Below are positions 9,295 to 21,837 of a DNA stretch of 45,196 nucleotides, piece by piece. Positions within the stretch are counted from its first letter, which is position 1. The number at the start of each line of letters is the position of its first letter. The DNA lies in the NCBI GenBank assembly GCA_013152715.1, contig JAADFU010000181.1:1-45196 (forward strand), read 5' to 3'. Source of the DNA: Calditrichota bacterium. GTDB taxonomy: Bacteria; Zhuqueibacterota; Zhuqueibacteria; Thermofontimicrobiales; Thermofontimicrobiaceae. Made by a program: the position numbers and the translations under genes. The notes below the pieces were generated by a model. That model searched no databases. It saw only the letters and a list, made by a program, of their open reading frames with translations, and was not told the origin of the DNA.

Positions 9295-11658
9295 TTATTC
9301 TTCTGTTTTCTTGCGCAGTTCTTCGGAATGCTGGAAAAATTCTTCCAGGGTCATTTTTTTTAGAAAATTAAAACCGCGCGCCGCGCGAAGCCTTGGGTGT
9401 TTATTTTCGAACAAAAACTCTCTTCCCAGCGCAGATTTTATCAATTGATATTGCTCGACCATAATCTGCTGCGCCAATCGGGAAAACGGGCCGTCCAACT
9501 CGTAGCTTGGGAAAGACGCTGCCCGCTGCGAACCAAAACAGCTATGAAATGCCTGGTCCAGGCTGGCAAAAGAATTCAGGGAAACAGGGACAAAAGTCGT
9601 CGCTTCGGCCGGGTGAAATCTGTACCACACATTGCGATAGCCCCAGATTTGAATTTTTGCTTTTTTGTGTTTTTTGGTGTATTTTTTTAAGGCCTCGCTG
9701 ATCGCTTGCATGACTTTGTAGTGCGTATCGGGACCGCTGCCTTCAGGGTCAAGCGCCACGGTAACGATGGTCGGCTTAATTTCTTCAATCAATCTGATAA
9801 TTGGCTTGACGTCGCGTTGGTCTTCCGGTTCTTCGGTAAAAATTTCGCCCTGGTAAAATCCGAGACGGAGATGTTTTACGTTTTGAGAGTTGAAACCCAG
9901 ATAGGCCCACAACAGATCCGCTTCCCATTCTCTGATCATTCCTTTGAGTCGCTGAATGTAGGTCATATCTTTTTTGCCCGGATATTGTGTGTGAAAATAA
10001 TTGAGCAATTCATCGATGCGATGTTTGATATGCTGTAAACTTTCTTCTTCAAAAATGAACATTAAATTTCGTAACAGACGTCGGCTTTGCGCTTCATTTT
10101 TTATTGAGCGGCTGTGCGCGGCGACGCCGTCAAGATAATGGTACACGTCCCGGTCGCGAAATAGCGCGTTGGAGAAATCAAAGTAATGCTGGGCGTGAAG
10201 TCGCTGAAATTGTGCTGTGTCAATATAATCGTACCGCAAAATTTTGAGTAAATCGTAAACATACTTATTGGTGACGGCGGTGAAGCCGCTGGTCATGTAA
10301 TTAAAATAATGGACGTTTTTCGGATCCCGCACCAGGTGCACCATGTAGGGCCAAAATCCGAGCATGACATCGTCGTGATGCGGCGCAGTGTGCATGAAAA
10401 TCTCTCCGCTAACGGGCGCGACACCATCGTTAATTTTCTGTTTGATGGAATTTTCCGTCATTTGAATGATTTCAGCGACTTGTTTTGAGGTTTTGGACAG
10501 CAAGAGATTTCCGATTTTGTTTTCGGTGAAATTTTTTTCTGTCAAAGCAGATAATCTTTTTGAGTTCAATTGAGCTAAATTGATGGTCACGCGTTCCAGG
10601 TCTTCGTCCGACAAATTTTCTTTCCTTGCCAATTCCTGGAAGCGGCGTTCAACGAGAAATTTAGCGGCGCCGCGCGTCAAATAAAATCGTGCGCGCGGCA
10701 ATTTTTGCAGCGCCGTTGCCGGATACAAATTGTTGGGGTTGTTTTCGATTGCCTTTTGAATGATCTTTGCCTTTGCCTCGCCGGCGGCGATGATTATGGC
10801 GACCGCTGCCGGGTTGTAAATAATTGTACTCAATCCGATGGTGATGACCAGCCGGTTCCTGGCAATTTCAATGCCGCCCATGTCCGTGGCTGCCGCTGCC
10901 TGTGTCTCGTAATTTGTCGGTGTTAATCGTGTCGTGGAGAAATGGTCCGAGCCGCGAACATTAAAGCCGATGTGTCCGTCCGGGCCGATGCCGCCAAGAA
11001 AAAAGCCAATGCCGCCCATCTTGCGAATTTTGGTTTCGTAATCGAAGCAGTACTGGTCGATGGCTTCAATAACTTGTTTTTGCACGCGTTCCTGCTTTAA
11101 AGTTGGCTGTCGATAGCGCAGACTCAAGTCAACTTTTTCATCGGGAAAAACTTTTTGGGGATCCATGTCTTCCGGCACGCCGATTTTGTAAGCGTCGATG
11201 AGCAGGGCTTTATTTTTATCGAGACCAAAATCTTTAATGTAATAGCGATTGATGTAATGGTAAAAGCTGTTGTATTGCAGGGAATTGATCGGATAAAATT
11301 CGTCAATTTGCACAAAACGCAAATTCTCCATTTCAGGCTTTTTCGTCGTATCGAGCAAACCCCAGGAGCGAAGGTCTTCTTTGATTTCTTTTTTACCCCA
11401 ATTTTTGAGAAAATATTTTACCCATCTGATGAAATGTTCGGGGGTTTTCCCGGTCGGAAGAGAAATGACGCCGTGGGGATTATTTTGTACCCACTCCAAA
11501 AAGCGAACCGCGGTCAGCTTTCCCAACGCCGGGAAATTATCCACAATGATAACAGGAATTTTTTCTGTCGGCGGATAAATTGGATCCAATCCACTCCTTT
11601 CAAGCGCTTCTTTTTCAACATTCGATTCATTAAATGAAAAATTCAATGTCTTGTTCAT
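9295..11658 (-). CDS. Glucosamine-6-phosphate deaminase-like / PIG-L deacetylase-like fusion protein
   Basis: 787 residues, two enzyme domains. The N-terminal half is NagB-like: SLPTGKTPEHF (sugar-phosphate loop), FVQIDEFYP (the general-base Asp) and GGIGPDGHIGFN (the Asp-Gly-His active site). The C-terminal half is PIG-L/LmbE-like: TAPHHDDVMLG in place of the usual PHPDDE, and a second metal-ligand region EGSGPDTHYKVMQ. The pairing suggests amino-sugar processing, deacetylation plus deamination/isomerisation, but the third residue of the zinc motif differs (Val for Glu), so the second activity needs proof. Start at ATG 11658 is chosen over ATGs at 11664 and 11685 because AAAGGA lies five bases upstream. 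Confidence 0.88.
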   Translation of the reverse strand: MNKTLNFSFNESNVEKEALERSGLDPIYPPTEKIPVIIVDNFPALGKLTAVRFLEWVQNNPHGVISLPTGKTPEHFIRWVKYFLKNWGKKEIKEDLRSWGLLDTTKKPEMENLRFVQIDEFYPINSLQYNSFYHYINRYYIKDFGLDKNKALLIDAYKIGVPEDMDPQKVFPDEKVDLSLRYRQPTLKQERVQKQVIEAIDQYCFDYETKIRKMGGIGFFLGGIGPDGHIGFNVRGSDHFSTTRLTPTNYETQAAAATDMGGIEIARNRLVITIGLSTIIYNPAAVAIIIAAGEAKAKIIQKAIENNPNNLYPATALQKLPRARFYLTRGAAKFLVERRFQELARKENLSDEDLERVTINLAQLNSKRLSALTEKNFTENKIGNLLLSKTSKQVAEIIQMTENSIKQKINDGVAPVSGEIFMHTAPHHDDVMLGFWPYMVHLVRDPKNVHYFNYMTSGFTAVTNKYVYDLLKILRYDYIDTAQFQRLHAQHYFDFSNALFRDRDVYHYLDGVAAHSRSIKNEAQSRRLLRNLMFIFEEESLQHIKHRIDELLNYFHTQYPGKKDMTYIQRLKGMIREWEADLLWAYLGFNSQNVKHLRLGFYQGEIFTEEPEDQRDVKPIIRLIEEIKPTIVTVALDPEGSGPDTHYKVMQAISEALKKYTKKHKKAKIQIWGYRNVWYRFHPAEATTFVPVSLNSFASLDQAFHSCFGSQRAASFPSYELDGPFSRLAQQIMVEQYQLIKSALGREFLFENKHPRLRAARGFNFLKKMTLEEFFQHSEELRKKTEE

Positions 11659-11940
11659 GTTCATCCTTTCTCTGGCAATTGTCATTCAAAATGTCTTCCC
11701 CCGCTAAACTGCGAGACTACCGTCATACAGAAAAGAAATCAATTGCGTATGTGAAAAATTTGTAGCGTCCGTTTCAGATTATGGTTCTGTTTATGAATTT
11801 GGAGAAAAATTGAGACTGGCGATTCGGTGAAATATCGGCCAATTTTTTCTGCAAATTACTTCAAAAATAGCAAAGCCCATTTTAATGCTATAATTTAAAA
11901 ATATTTTTCCATTAATCAAGTTTTTTTTAATATCCATGCA
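11659..11940. other. Intergenic region upstream of the NagB/PIG-L fusion
   Basis: About 280 bp, AT-rich, no ORF worth calling. It should carry the promoter of the fusion gene on the minus strand, but no convincing -35/-10 pair was found. A TATAAT word near 11889 is on the plus strand, where no gene follows. Confidence 0.4.
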
Positions 11941-11994: not shown

Positions 11995-12576
11995 TCACAT
12001 CTTCTTCGCTTTTGTCGTTCCGCAATCGCCTTTTTTGTCAATGAACTCTTGCAGAGATACATTTTTTTTGTAGCACTCCTGATCAATGTAATCGAGAATA
12101 TAACCGAATTTGTCCGCCGGAATGTAGCCCGGGATCACAGTAATGACTTCCTGTTTCGACGTGAGGAAACCGAGCGAGGGAAAACCAGTCACGCGAAACG
12201 CTTGTGTCAACTGCACATTGGTAAATTCGCGACCTTGAAAGTGGGCGGTTTCTGTCTGGCTTTCCGCGTTGATGCGGATGGTGACAAAGCGTTCCGCCAG
12301 TTTTTTGGCGATTTCGGGGTTCTGGAAAGTTTTTTCGTCCATCACTTTGCACCAGTGACACCAATCCGTATAAAAATCGATGATCATATTTTTATTTTCT
12401 TTTGCGCCCTTCGCCAGACCCTCGTCAAATTTCATCCAAACGACTTCTGGCTTGGCGTCGCTCTTTTTCTCTACCTTTTGTTGCTTGTCCTGAGCAATGC
12501 TTTCGCTGTCCGACCCAGAGCAGCCCCATACAAAAATTACAGTTAAAAGCAAAAATACGCTAAAATACTTTTTCAT
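11995..12576 (-). CDS. Thioredoxin-fold lipoprotein
   Basis: 193 residues. A signal with lipobox FVWGC (Cys19) is followed by a charged linker (about 25-45), then a thioredoxin-like domain with DFYTDWCHWCKVMD (CxxC at about 73-76) and cis-Pro region VTGFPSLGFL. This resembles the thioredoxin-7/DsbD C-terminal group, which reduces or exchanges disulfides on the outer side of the membrane. Start ATG 12576 has GGAGG seven bases upstream. The gene lies downstream of DUF6132 and the UGA-containing small frame on the same strand, suggesting a shared role in envelope thiol or selenol chemistry. Confidence 0.9.
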   Translation of the reverse strand: MKKYFSVFLLLTVIFVWGCSGSDSESIAQDKQQKVEKKSDAKPEVVWMKFDEGLAKGAKENKNMIIDFYTDWCHWCKVMDEKTFQNPEIAKKLAERFVTIRINAESQTETAHFQGREFTNVQLTQAFRVTGFPSLGFLTSKQEVITVIPGYIPADKFGYILDYIDQECYKKNVSLQEFIDKKGDCGTTKAKKM

Positions 12577-12681: not shown

Positions 12682-12855
12682 TTATTTCCTGACGATTAGG
12701 TGACGCTTATTATTTTTTTTAACGATACGGAGAACATCGCCTTTTCCGCTCGCTGATATTTTGCGTTTTGTGAAGCGATAAAAATTGAGTGTCTCCACAT
12801 GAAAAACTAATTTGTCCCCGGCAATTTCATTTTTTTCATAATTTTTCGATGAATT
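12682..12855 (-). pseudogene. In-frame open continuation after the TAG of the UGA-containing small gene
   Basis: Beyond the TAG at 12856-12858 the same frame stays open for 57 codons to a TAA at 12682-12684. The translation, for example AGDKLVFHVETLNFYRF and GDVLRIVKKNNKRHLIVRK, looks like protein with alternating strands, not random sequence. It has no ATG; the only alternative start is a GTG near 12798 without a good ribosome site. It may be the 3' part of a gene broken by TAG, a separate small gene, or chance. I recognise no family. Confidence 0.35.
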
Positions 12856-13026
12856 CTATGCTTCATTTTTCTCGATTTGCGCGTCATTAATGTTCGTTTT
12901 GTCTTCACTTTCATCCTGAAAGTCGCAGGAGCGAGGCATTCAGGTAGAGATCCCCGCTTTGGGTAAAACATAGCGCAGCAATATCACATACACGACAAAA
13001 AATAAAATTGGAATTAACGAATCCAT
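12856..13026 (-). CDS. Candidate selenoprotein: small membrane protein with in-frame UGA (Sec29)
   Basis: Frame from ATG 13026 with AGGAG eight bases upstream; its A is the last base of the DUF6132 stop (TAATG), so translation is coupled. Residues 4-22 form one hydrophobic helix ending LRYVLPKAGIST. Codon 29 is TGA (12940-12942), and the frame then runs MPRSC and an acidic tail to TAG at 12856-12858, 56 residues if UGA is read as Sec. A Cys at residue 34 gives a U-x4-C pair. A SECIS-like hairpin follows the UGA. Without recoding the product is a 28-residue membrane peptide. TGA is an ordinary stop elsewhere here (28897-28899, 14073-14075). The family is not known to me; decay is the main alternative. 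Confidence 0.5.
12907..12923 (-). promoter_or_regulatory. Candidate bacterial SECIS hairpin
   Basis: The RNA ACUUUC-AGGAU-GAAAGU forms a perfect 6-bp stem with a 5-nt loop. It starts 16 nt after the in-frame UGA and its loop starts 22 nt after it, inside the range known for bacterial SECIS elements. The loop begins AGG, as in the E. coli fdhF element (AGGUCU). Short stems can arise by chance, so this supports but does not prove recoding. Confidence 0.45.
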
Positions 13027-13232
13027 TAATTTTGCTCCTGTAGTTTTTTCTTTTTCTTGTCTTCTTTCCTATTAAAAGAAAGAACAATGCCTATTAGCGC
13101 TCCATATCCTGTGCTGATGTATGGATTGCTGGTGATAGGGCAAGATCCGGATCGACATCCGATAAATTTGTAATATGCAAATCCCAAAATAGCGCCAATC
13201 AGAATAATCCCTATTCGTTTCCAGATTTTCAT
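13026..13232 (-). CDS. DUF6132 family small membrane protein
   Basis: 68 residues from ATG 13232, chosen because GAGG lies five bases upstream; an upstream in-frame ATG at 13253 has no such site. A first hydrophobic helix (GIILIGAILGFAYYKFIG) is followed by CRSGSCPITSNPYIS, with a Cys-x4-Cys pair typical of this family, a second helix (YGALIGIVLSF) and a Lys-rich tail. The function is unknown. The conserved Cys pair and the thioredoxin-like neighbour hint at redox or metal-linked work in the inner membrane. Its stop overlaps the start of the UGA-containing small gene by one base. Confidence 0.85.
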   Translation of the reverse strand: MKIWKRIGIILIGAILGFAYYKFIGCRSGSCPITSNPYISTGYGALIGIVLSFNRKEDKKKKKLQEQN

Positions 13233-13340
13233 AATTTCCTCATGATTTTGCATACGGTTCCGCTTTGTAAAAAAAGAAACTTTAAAGAAATATTAGATGC
13301 CCGTTTCTCGTAAAAGTTTCATTGCAGACAAAAATTTCGC

Positions 13341-21294: not shown

Positions 21295-21837
21295 ATGAGT
21301 CAACTATCAAGAGATGAAATTTTGGCAAAAATAAAGAACAAAGAGTCGCTCGCCGGGCTGGATTTGTCAGGGGCCGATTTTTCTTACGAAGATTTGCGCG
21401 GCGTTGTCTTTTCAGGAGCAAACCTTTGTGATGCGCATTTGCAGAATGCGAATCTGGCACAGGCTGATTTTAGCGACGCCCACCTGGAGCAAGCGTTTTT
21501 TTTCGGCGCAAATTTGGCGCAGGCAAAGTTTGATCGGGCGTTTTTGAAAGACGCCAATTTGCAGGATACCAATCTGGAATTTGCTTCATTCAAAAACGCA
21601 GATTTGGAACATGTCAAATTATTCGGCGTGCAGGCGGAAAACGCTGATTTTCAGGGGGCGAATTTGTCCAACGCGAGAATGAAACGCTCGAATTTCAAAC
21701 ACGCAAACTTTCAGCAAGCAAATCTGAATCAGGCCCATTTAGAGAGATCGGAGTTGAATGGCGCGGATTTCACAGGCGCAAATCTGGAGGGAAGCTTCCT
21801 GGAGCACGCTGATTTGACAAATGCAAAACTGAAGTGA
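21295..21837 (+). CDS. Pentapeptide-repeat protein
   Basis: 180 residues. After an N-terminal helix, from about residue 20 to the end it is a tandem array of A(D/N)LxX units (for example SGADFSYEDL, GANLCDAHLQNANL, GADFTGANLEG), roughly 30 units giving a right-handed quadrilateral beta-helix. Pentapeptide proteins include DNA-gyrase protectors (Qnr-type) and many of unknown role; nothing here shows which. TAGGAGG precedes the ATG. It closes the gene run that starts with the exporter. Confidence 0.9.
   Translation: MSQLSRDEILAKIKNKESLAGLDLSGADFSYEDLRGVVFSGANLCDAHLQNANLAQADFSDAHLEQAFFFGANLAQAKFDRAFLKDANLQDTNLEFASFKNADLEHVKLFGVQAENADFQGANLSNARMKRSNFKHANFQQANLNQAHLERSELNGADFTGANLEGSFLEHADLTNAKLK

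Follow-up and report, generated by a model that had tools for sequence, protein, structure and literature searches.

The window, which is the whole 45,196-nucleotide stretch of DNA analysed here, has a short gene on the minus strand that very probably encodes a small membrane selenoprotein with selenocysteine (Sec) at codon 29. This reading, which was drawn from sequence comparison, leaves the function of the protein open. The gene, its parts and its neighbours are listed in Table 1. An AGGAG (13039-13035) is located eight bases 5' of the ATG (13026-13024), and the ATG has one base in common with the TAA of the DUF6132 ORF (TAATG). The frame runs for 28 codons with one hydrophobic helix, reaches the TGA and continues with MPRSC and an acidic tail, giving MDSLIPILFFVVYVILLRYVLPKAGIST-U-MPRSCDFQDESEDKTNINDAQIEKNEA-TAG (TAG at 12858-12856). 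All of these elements had been described in an earlier sequence-only reading of the locus and were confirmed. The same holds for the U-x4-C arrangement, with Cys34 at U+5, for the C-x4-C of the upstream partner, which occurs as GCRSGSC in a protein that matches DUF6132, and for the downstream CxxC thioredoxin lipoprotein, which has a lipobox and WCHWC.

Table 1. Features of the candidate selenoprotein gene and its neighbours in the window
Feature	Position	Strand	Basis
Probable selenoprotein gene, 57 codons, 56 residues with the TGA read through, TAG end	12856-13026	-	Sequence; homologues in 53/82 phylum genomes
Codon 29 TGA, proposed selenocysteine	12940-12942	-	TGA in 51/52 intact phylum homologues, TGC in the other one
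Codon 34 TGC (Cys at U+5), proposed resolving Cys	12925-12927	-	Cys kept in homologues
Bacterial SECIS-type hairpin	12907-12923	-	5' arm 12923-12918, loop AGGAU 12917-12913, 3' arm 12912-12907; covariation
Transmembrane helix, residues 4-23	12958-13017	-	AlphaFold2 helix
Shine-Dalgarno AGGAG	13035-13039	-	Sequence; similar AGGAG/AAGGAG in many relatives
DUF6132 protein (PF19628), C-x4-C between two hydrophobic segments	13026-13253	-	Pfam, 35 bits
Thioredoxin-like lipoprotein (lipobox, WCHWC), DsbD-C-terminal/DsbH-like	11995-12576	-	Matches thioredoxin families

The AlphaFold2 model of the protein has a mean pLDDT of 88-89 for residues 1-20; the rest is of low confidence and the model gives no geometry for the U/C pair. 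The segment ahead of the helix carries a net charge of -1.0 and the segment just past it +1.8. The positive-inside rule therefore assigns the Sec end to the cytoplasm, and the protein probably has its N-terminus outside and its C-terminus inside. A role in envelope thiol chemistry, as suggested in the earlier reading, is unproven, and the charge pattern places Sec on the cytoplasmic face. A 54-aa ORF (12807-12971) that overlaps the gene was dismissed since it has no family match. The window also encodes a 796-residue protein (9295-11685, minus strand) with glucosamine-6-phosphate deaminase-like and PIG-L deacetylase-like parts.

Homologues and the codon at the selenocysteine site

The phylum was sampled with 82 genomes. 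The read-through protein as query found homologues in 48 of them, and a profile of 44 sequences (alignment A1) raised the count to 53. The codon at the Sec site is TGA in 51 of these homologues, TGC in one (G042) and TAA in one (G056). Neither TAA nor TAG takes the place of the TGA in any of the 52 intact homologues. The terminal stops of the same 52 genes are 22 TAA, 17 TAG and 13 TGA, and the frequency of TGA at the Sec site (51/52) against that at the terminal stop (13/52) gives a Fisher p of 7e-16. Therefore, the Sec site does not behave like a random draw from ordinary stops. Besides the TAA, the G056 homologue (L078, C54, about 21444-21593) carries ATA where the start ATG should be. It belongs to the window's own order and looks like a decaying copy, though G056 has SelB and tRNA-Sec.

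It is very improbable that the TGA is an ordinary stop, which would give a 28-residue membrane peptide and leave the remainder untranslated. A 28-residue product with a good ribosome-binding site is a plausible small membrane protein, and G056 does have a TAA at the site; however, no intact homologue has another stop there, Cys replaces the TGA in other homologues, and the codons beyond it are under purifying selection and nearly always retain a second Cys. An altered code, in which TGA is read as another amino acid, would also explain an in-frame TGA. This deserves next to no credence since TGA is the terminal stop in a quarter of the same genes, the residue replacing Sec is Cys and not Trp or Gly, and tRNA-Sec, SelA and SelB are present.

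The family reaches beyond the phylum. When GTDB contigs were scanned for a Cys-only pattern without a taxon limit, seven Cys forms came up, and their MAGs carry the names Bryobacteraceae, Bryobacterales, Acidobacteriia, Planctomycetales, Chloroflexi, Cyanobacteriota and Deltaproteobacteria; a tRNA-Sec match is absent in five of these seven genomes. The phyla of two of the seven were searched as a second and a third phylum. The second has a family match in 29 of 379 genomes, and the loci read there comprise 25 with TGA and four with Cys. The third has a match in 87 of 396 sampled genomes (about a fifth), most with TGA, and the loci read comprise 26 with TGA and two with Cys. At least three phyla thus have homologues whose residue 29 is Sec or Cys; the absence of such homologues had been named as counter-evidence in the sequence-only reading. 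No relatives were found in viral contigs or, by tblastn, in plasmids, and a PDB profile search gave no match. Judged from these matches, the family is spread over at least three bacterial phyla and is frequent in two.

Members have about 46-70 residues, one membrane helix and a charged disordered tail. The helix ends in the signature [KR]xx[IV]LP[KR]xG[VI]xT, followed by Sec and then by the second Cys, usually as U-M-S-x-x-C. In the 44-row alignment P-x-x-G-x-x-T-[U/C] is invariant and the Cys five residues on is nearly so. Over 15 close pairs the pN/pS ratio rises from 0.27 before the TGA to 0.37 for codons +1 to +13 and 0.47 in the tail; the neutral substitution after the TGA that had been named as counter-evidence did not appear.

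The second Cys is located at U+4 to +6 in 50 of the 51 TGA members of the phylum, and 100 of 102 TGA members from the three phyla have a Cys at some point of the tail. In a second-phylum subgroup the hairpin region encodes RRS[AT]R and the Cys is found at the C-terminal end, as in ...RRSTRKQKTRDCGP. Three second-phylum Cys forms (L187, L188 and L192) have no second Cys close to the site. Since the second Cys relocates yet is rarely lost, its behaviour suggests a resolving Cys for Sec. The subgroup pattern in L181-L200 is U-[AM]-[VA]-P-x-x-RRS[AT]R with the C-terminal Cys. RRS[AT]R is the translation of the hairpin CGCGUCGGUCGACGCG, and this peptide may be a side product of the SECIS.

The hairpin and the selenocysteine machinery

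The hairpin in the window has the stem ACUUUC/GAAAGU with the loop AGGAU, and the stem starts 16 bases past the UGA. The SECIS-like stem-loop of the earlier reading is real and covaries, but it is smaller than the 12890-12945 claimed, with a length of 17 bases (12923-12907). When bases are numbered from the T of the TGA, bases 20-25 pair with bases 31-36 in most members, and the loop of most members has five bases, either nGGnn or AGGAU. In 43 of 51 phylum members the first loop base falls on one of two neighbouring positions, and in 49 of 51 a G is found in the first two bases of the loop. Members out of the common register form a separate hairpin a few bases closer to the TGA.

Covariation was tested on an ungapped alignment of 45 sequences, with shuffles and with the stem slid by 1-3 columns as controls. 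The proportion of paired cells is 93%, compared with 74.5% in shuffled alignments and 37-56% with the slid stem. Cells changed on both sides number 55 as compared with 15.2 after shuffling, and the covariation score is 0.611 as compared with 0.256. The second and third phyla also have hairpins after the TGA with a G near the loop start; their scores average 18.1 and 16.8, compared with 11.9 and 10.6 for shuffled sequences. Taken by itself, the window hairpin does not stand out (z = -0.99; 30 of 200 shuffles reach an equally good fold), which would fit an ordinary stop, and an Rfam scan of the window gave no match. The case for the hairpin therefore comes from the comparison across genomes, where a covarying stem at a fixed distance past the TGA argues against an ordinary stop.

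A strong hairpin also follows the site in the Cys forms L070, L067 and L068, which have TGC or TGT there. L070 has the loop GGTC and a tRNA-Sec in its genome. The hairpins of these Cys forms may be relics of a recent change from Sec to Cys.

The sequence-only reading would have been contradicted by a genome without selABC, and this is not the case. The genome of the window encodes SelB (331 bits), whose gene is cut by a contig end and directly preceded by that of SelA (568 bits), and a tRNA-Sec with the anticodon TCA (UCA). Among near-complete genomes of the phylum, SelB is found in 31 of 34 with the TGA gene and in 7 of 15 without it (p = 0.0014, uncorrected for phylogeny). Of the three near-complete exceptions without SelB, G049 and G072 have tRNA-Sec. 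The other, G032 (L089), is called 100% complete, and its TGA form is followed by a good hairpin; SelB was not found in it at E 1e-70 and its tRNA-Sec match is borderline at 47.2 bits.

Sec insertion at the TGA is supported by conservation of the site, coding selection, covariation of the hairpin and the Sec machinery, and from these we infer Sec in the protein. SelB with Sec-tRNA would read UGA29 as selenocysteine, guided by the hairpin.

Gene neighbours and possible roles

The commoner neighbour of the selenoprotein gene is an FmdB-type zinc ribbon (Zn_ribbon_8), which lies immediately downstream in 39 of 53 phylum loci and directly downstream in four third-phylum members; no such gene is found in the window. 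DUF6132 lies no more than 2 kb away in the same orientation in 26 of 53 phylum loci, upstream in the window's order and mostly downstream elsewhere, and it also occurs near L172 and L179 in the second phylum. The coupling to DUF6132 that had been proposed is thus borne out as a frequent neighbourhood, but it is not obligatory. Whole families have no DUF6132 anywhere in the genome, and across the phylum genomes its presence is not associated with that of the selenoprotein gene (p = 1.0). Therefore, adjacency is shown and dependence is not. The thioredoxin lipoprotein is downstream in eight loci, all in the window's own order. A multihaem cytochrome c, a 4Fe-4S membrane protein, a pyridine-nucleotide disulfide oxidoreductase, DUF72 and DUF302 also recur in the neighbourhood. 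The Cys form L071 adjoins a CcdA-thioredoxin fusion and the Cys form L067 adjoins rhodanese genes.

Some associations were noted on the side. A DUF302-like gene adjoins the selenoprotein gene at L183, L218, L221, L223 and L227, in the second and third phyla. Phylum genomes without the selenoprotein gene (L156, L160, L161, L165, L168 and L169) have DUF6132 followed by the FmdB-type zinc ribbon, a duo that forms a second conserved pair to which no function is assigned. In G065 a remnant of the selenoprotein gene was sought between DUF6132 and FmdB and none was seen.

A membrane-anchored thiol/selenol redox role is put forward here as a tentative assignment, with less than even odds. Sec and the second Cys could form a reversible selenylsulfide, and the protein would then act as a membrane-anchored redox element that passes electrons to or from partners encoded alongside. 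The partners may depend on the lineage and would be the FmdB-type zinc ribbon, DUF6132 with its C-x4-C, the thioredoxin lipoprotein or a flavin disulfide reductase.

The main alternative, which is only slightly less likely, is that the U/C pair serves, together with the zinc ribbon and DUF6132, as a binding site or carrier for a metal, selenium or persulfide sulfur, with no shuttling of electrons. The U-x-S-x-x-C of the selenoprotein resembles the C-x-[ST]-G-x-C of DUF6132, and the zinc-ribbon and DUF302 neighbours would suit such a role, as would the rhodanese, MBL-rhodanese and rhodanese-fused flavoprotein genes near some Cys forms. However, the second Cys shifts from U+5 to the C-terminal end in many second-phylum members, a shift easier to reconcile with a resolving Cys on a flexible tail than with a fixed metal site, and no metal-transport gene recurs in the neighbour clusters inspected.

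It is unlikely that the selenoprotein on the cytoplasmic side, DUF6132 on the outer side and the thioredoxin lipoprotein make up a split DsbD/CcdA-like transmembrane relay for thiol electrons. The genes in the window's order run DUF6132, selenoprotein, (FmdB), thioredoxin lipoprotein, and in L071/L172 the Cys form sits between DUF6132 and the CcdA-thioredoxin fusion. The topologies predicted from sequence are also opposite, with -1/+1.8 for the selenoprotein and basic ends for DUF6132. Against such a relay, the thioredoxin lipoprotein is confined to one order, and DUF6132 is lacking from half of the loci and from the genomes of whole families. In addition, a full DsbD-type transporter (DsbD_TM) is encoded elsewhere in 49 of 49 near-complete genomes, and thiol transport therefore has no gap that would call for a relay. 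The same observation weakens the idea of the selenoprotein as a replacement for DsbD/CcdA.

Relation to described families

The sequence-only reading knew of no described family with this layout, and this holds for Pfam, NCBIfam (June 2026) and a published inventory. Pfam and NCBIfam have no model that matches the family consistently; sporadic matches of single members have E values no better than 0.002, and the DsbD_TM domain has no Pfam match in the selenoprotein; the genome has separate DsbD-type genes. Among the papers that could be searched, none connects DUF6132 with selenoproteins. The inventory, of May 2026, lists 119 prokaryotic selenoprotein families or subfamilies (PMC13188914), and none of these entries has the layout of the family; it also mentions unvalidated candidates from groundwater MAGs, among which the family may have been detected independently before.

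The family is similar to the SelB/SECIS-type bacterial selenoproteins, of which FdhF is the archetype, in its in-frame UGA, its hairpin with a loop G, SelA, SelB and tRNA-Sec, and its Cys homologues. It differs from them in its small size, its single helix and in that no thioredoxin-like or metalloenzyme domain was found. The eukaryotic selenoproteins K and S are also small, with a single helix and Sec in the cytosolic C-terminal region, and SelS forms a selenylsulfide. The likeness is one of layout; Sec here is about six residues past the helix and not near the C-terminus, and the SECIS is bacterial.

DUF6132 has C-x-[ST]-G-x-C beside membrane helices, similar to the U-x-S-x-x-C of its neighbour, but it is a helical hairpin and no member of the selenoprotein alignment matches its model. 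The end of the YgaP-like transmembrane domain (PF11127) presumably resembles PxxG[IV]xTC, and a rhodanese-YgaP gene adjoins the Cys form L067; however, none of the 44 selenoprotein members has a Pfam match to this domain. NCBIfam TsoB, a rhodanese/DsbD fusion-like selenoprotein with UxxxxU, has the same spacing of four residues, and its C-terminal part resembles the thioredoxin lipoprotein of the window (58 bits, cut-off 805). TsoB is a model of 572 positions, and the small selenoprotein does not match it.

Taken as a whole, this apparently unrecorded one-helix selenoprotein family of at least three phyla, with its zinc-ribbon and DUF6132 partners, may represent a new membrane-bound selenol redox system, a reading that falls somewhat short of an even chance. 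As part of this reading, the family would have been missed because gene callers end the gene at the UGA as a 28-residue ORF. The finding adds a selenoprotein family, with more than 100 Sec members read, in phyla whose selenoproteomes are little studied. Its length of about 55 residues and its likely truncation by gene callers show how small selenoproteins can evade inventories. The family also provides a handle for predicting the function of DUF6132, FmdB-type zinc ribbons and DUF302, which are its recurrent neighbours.
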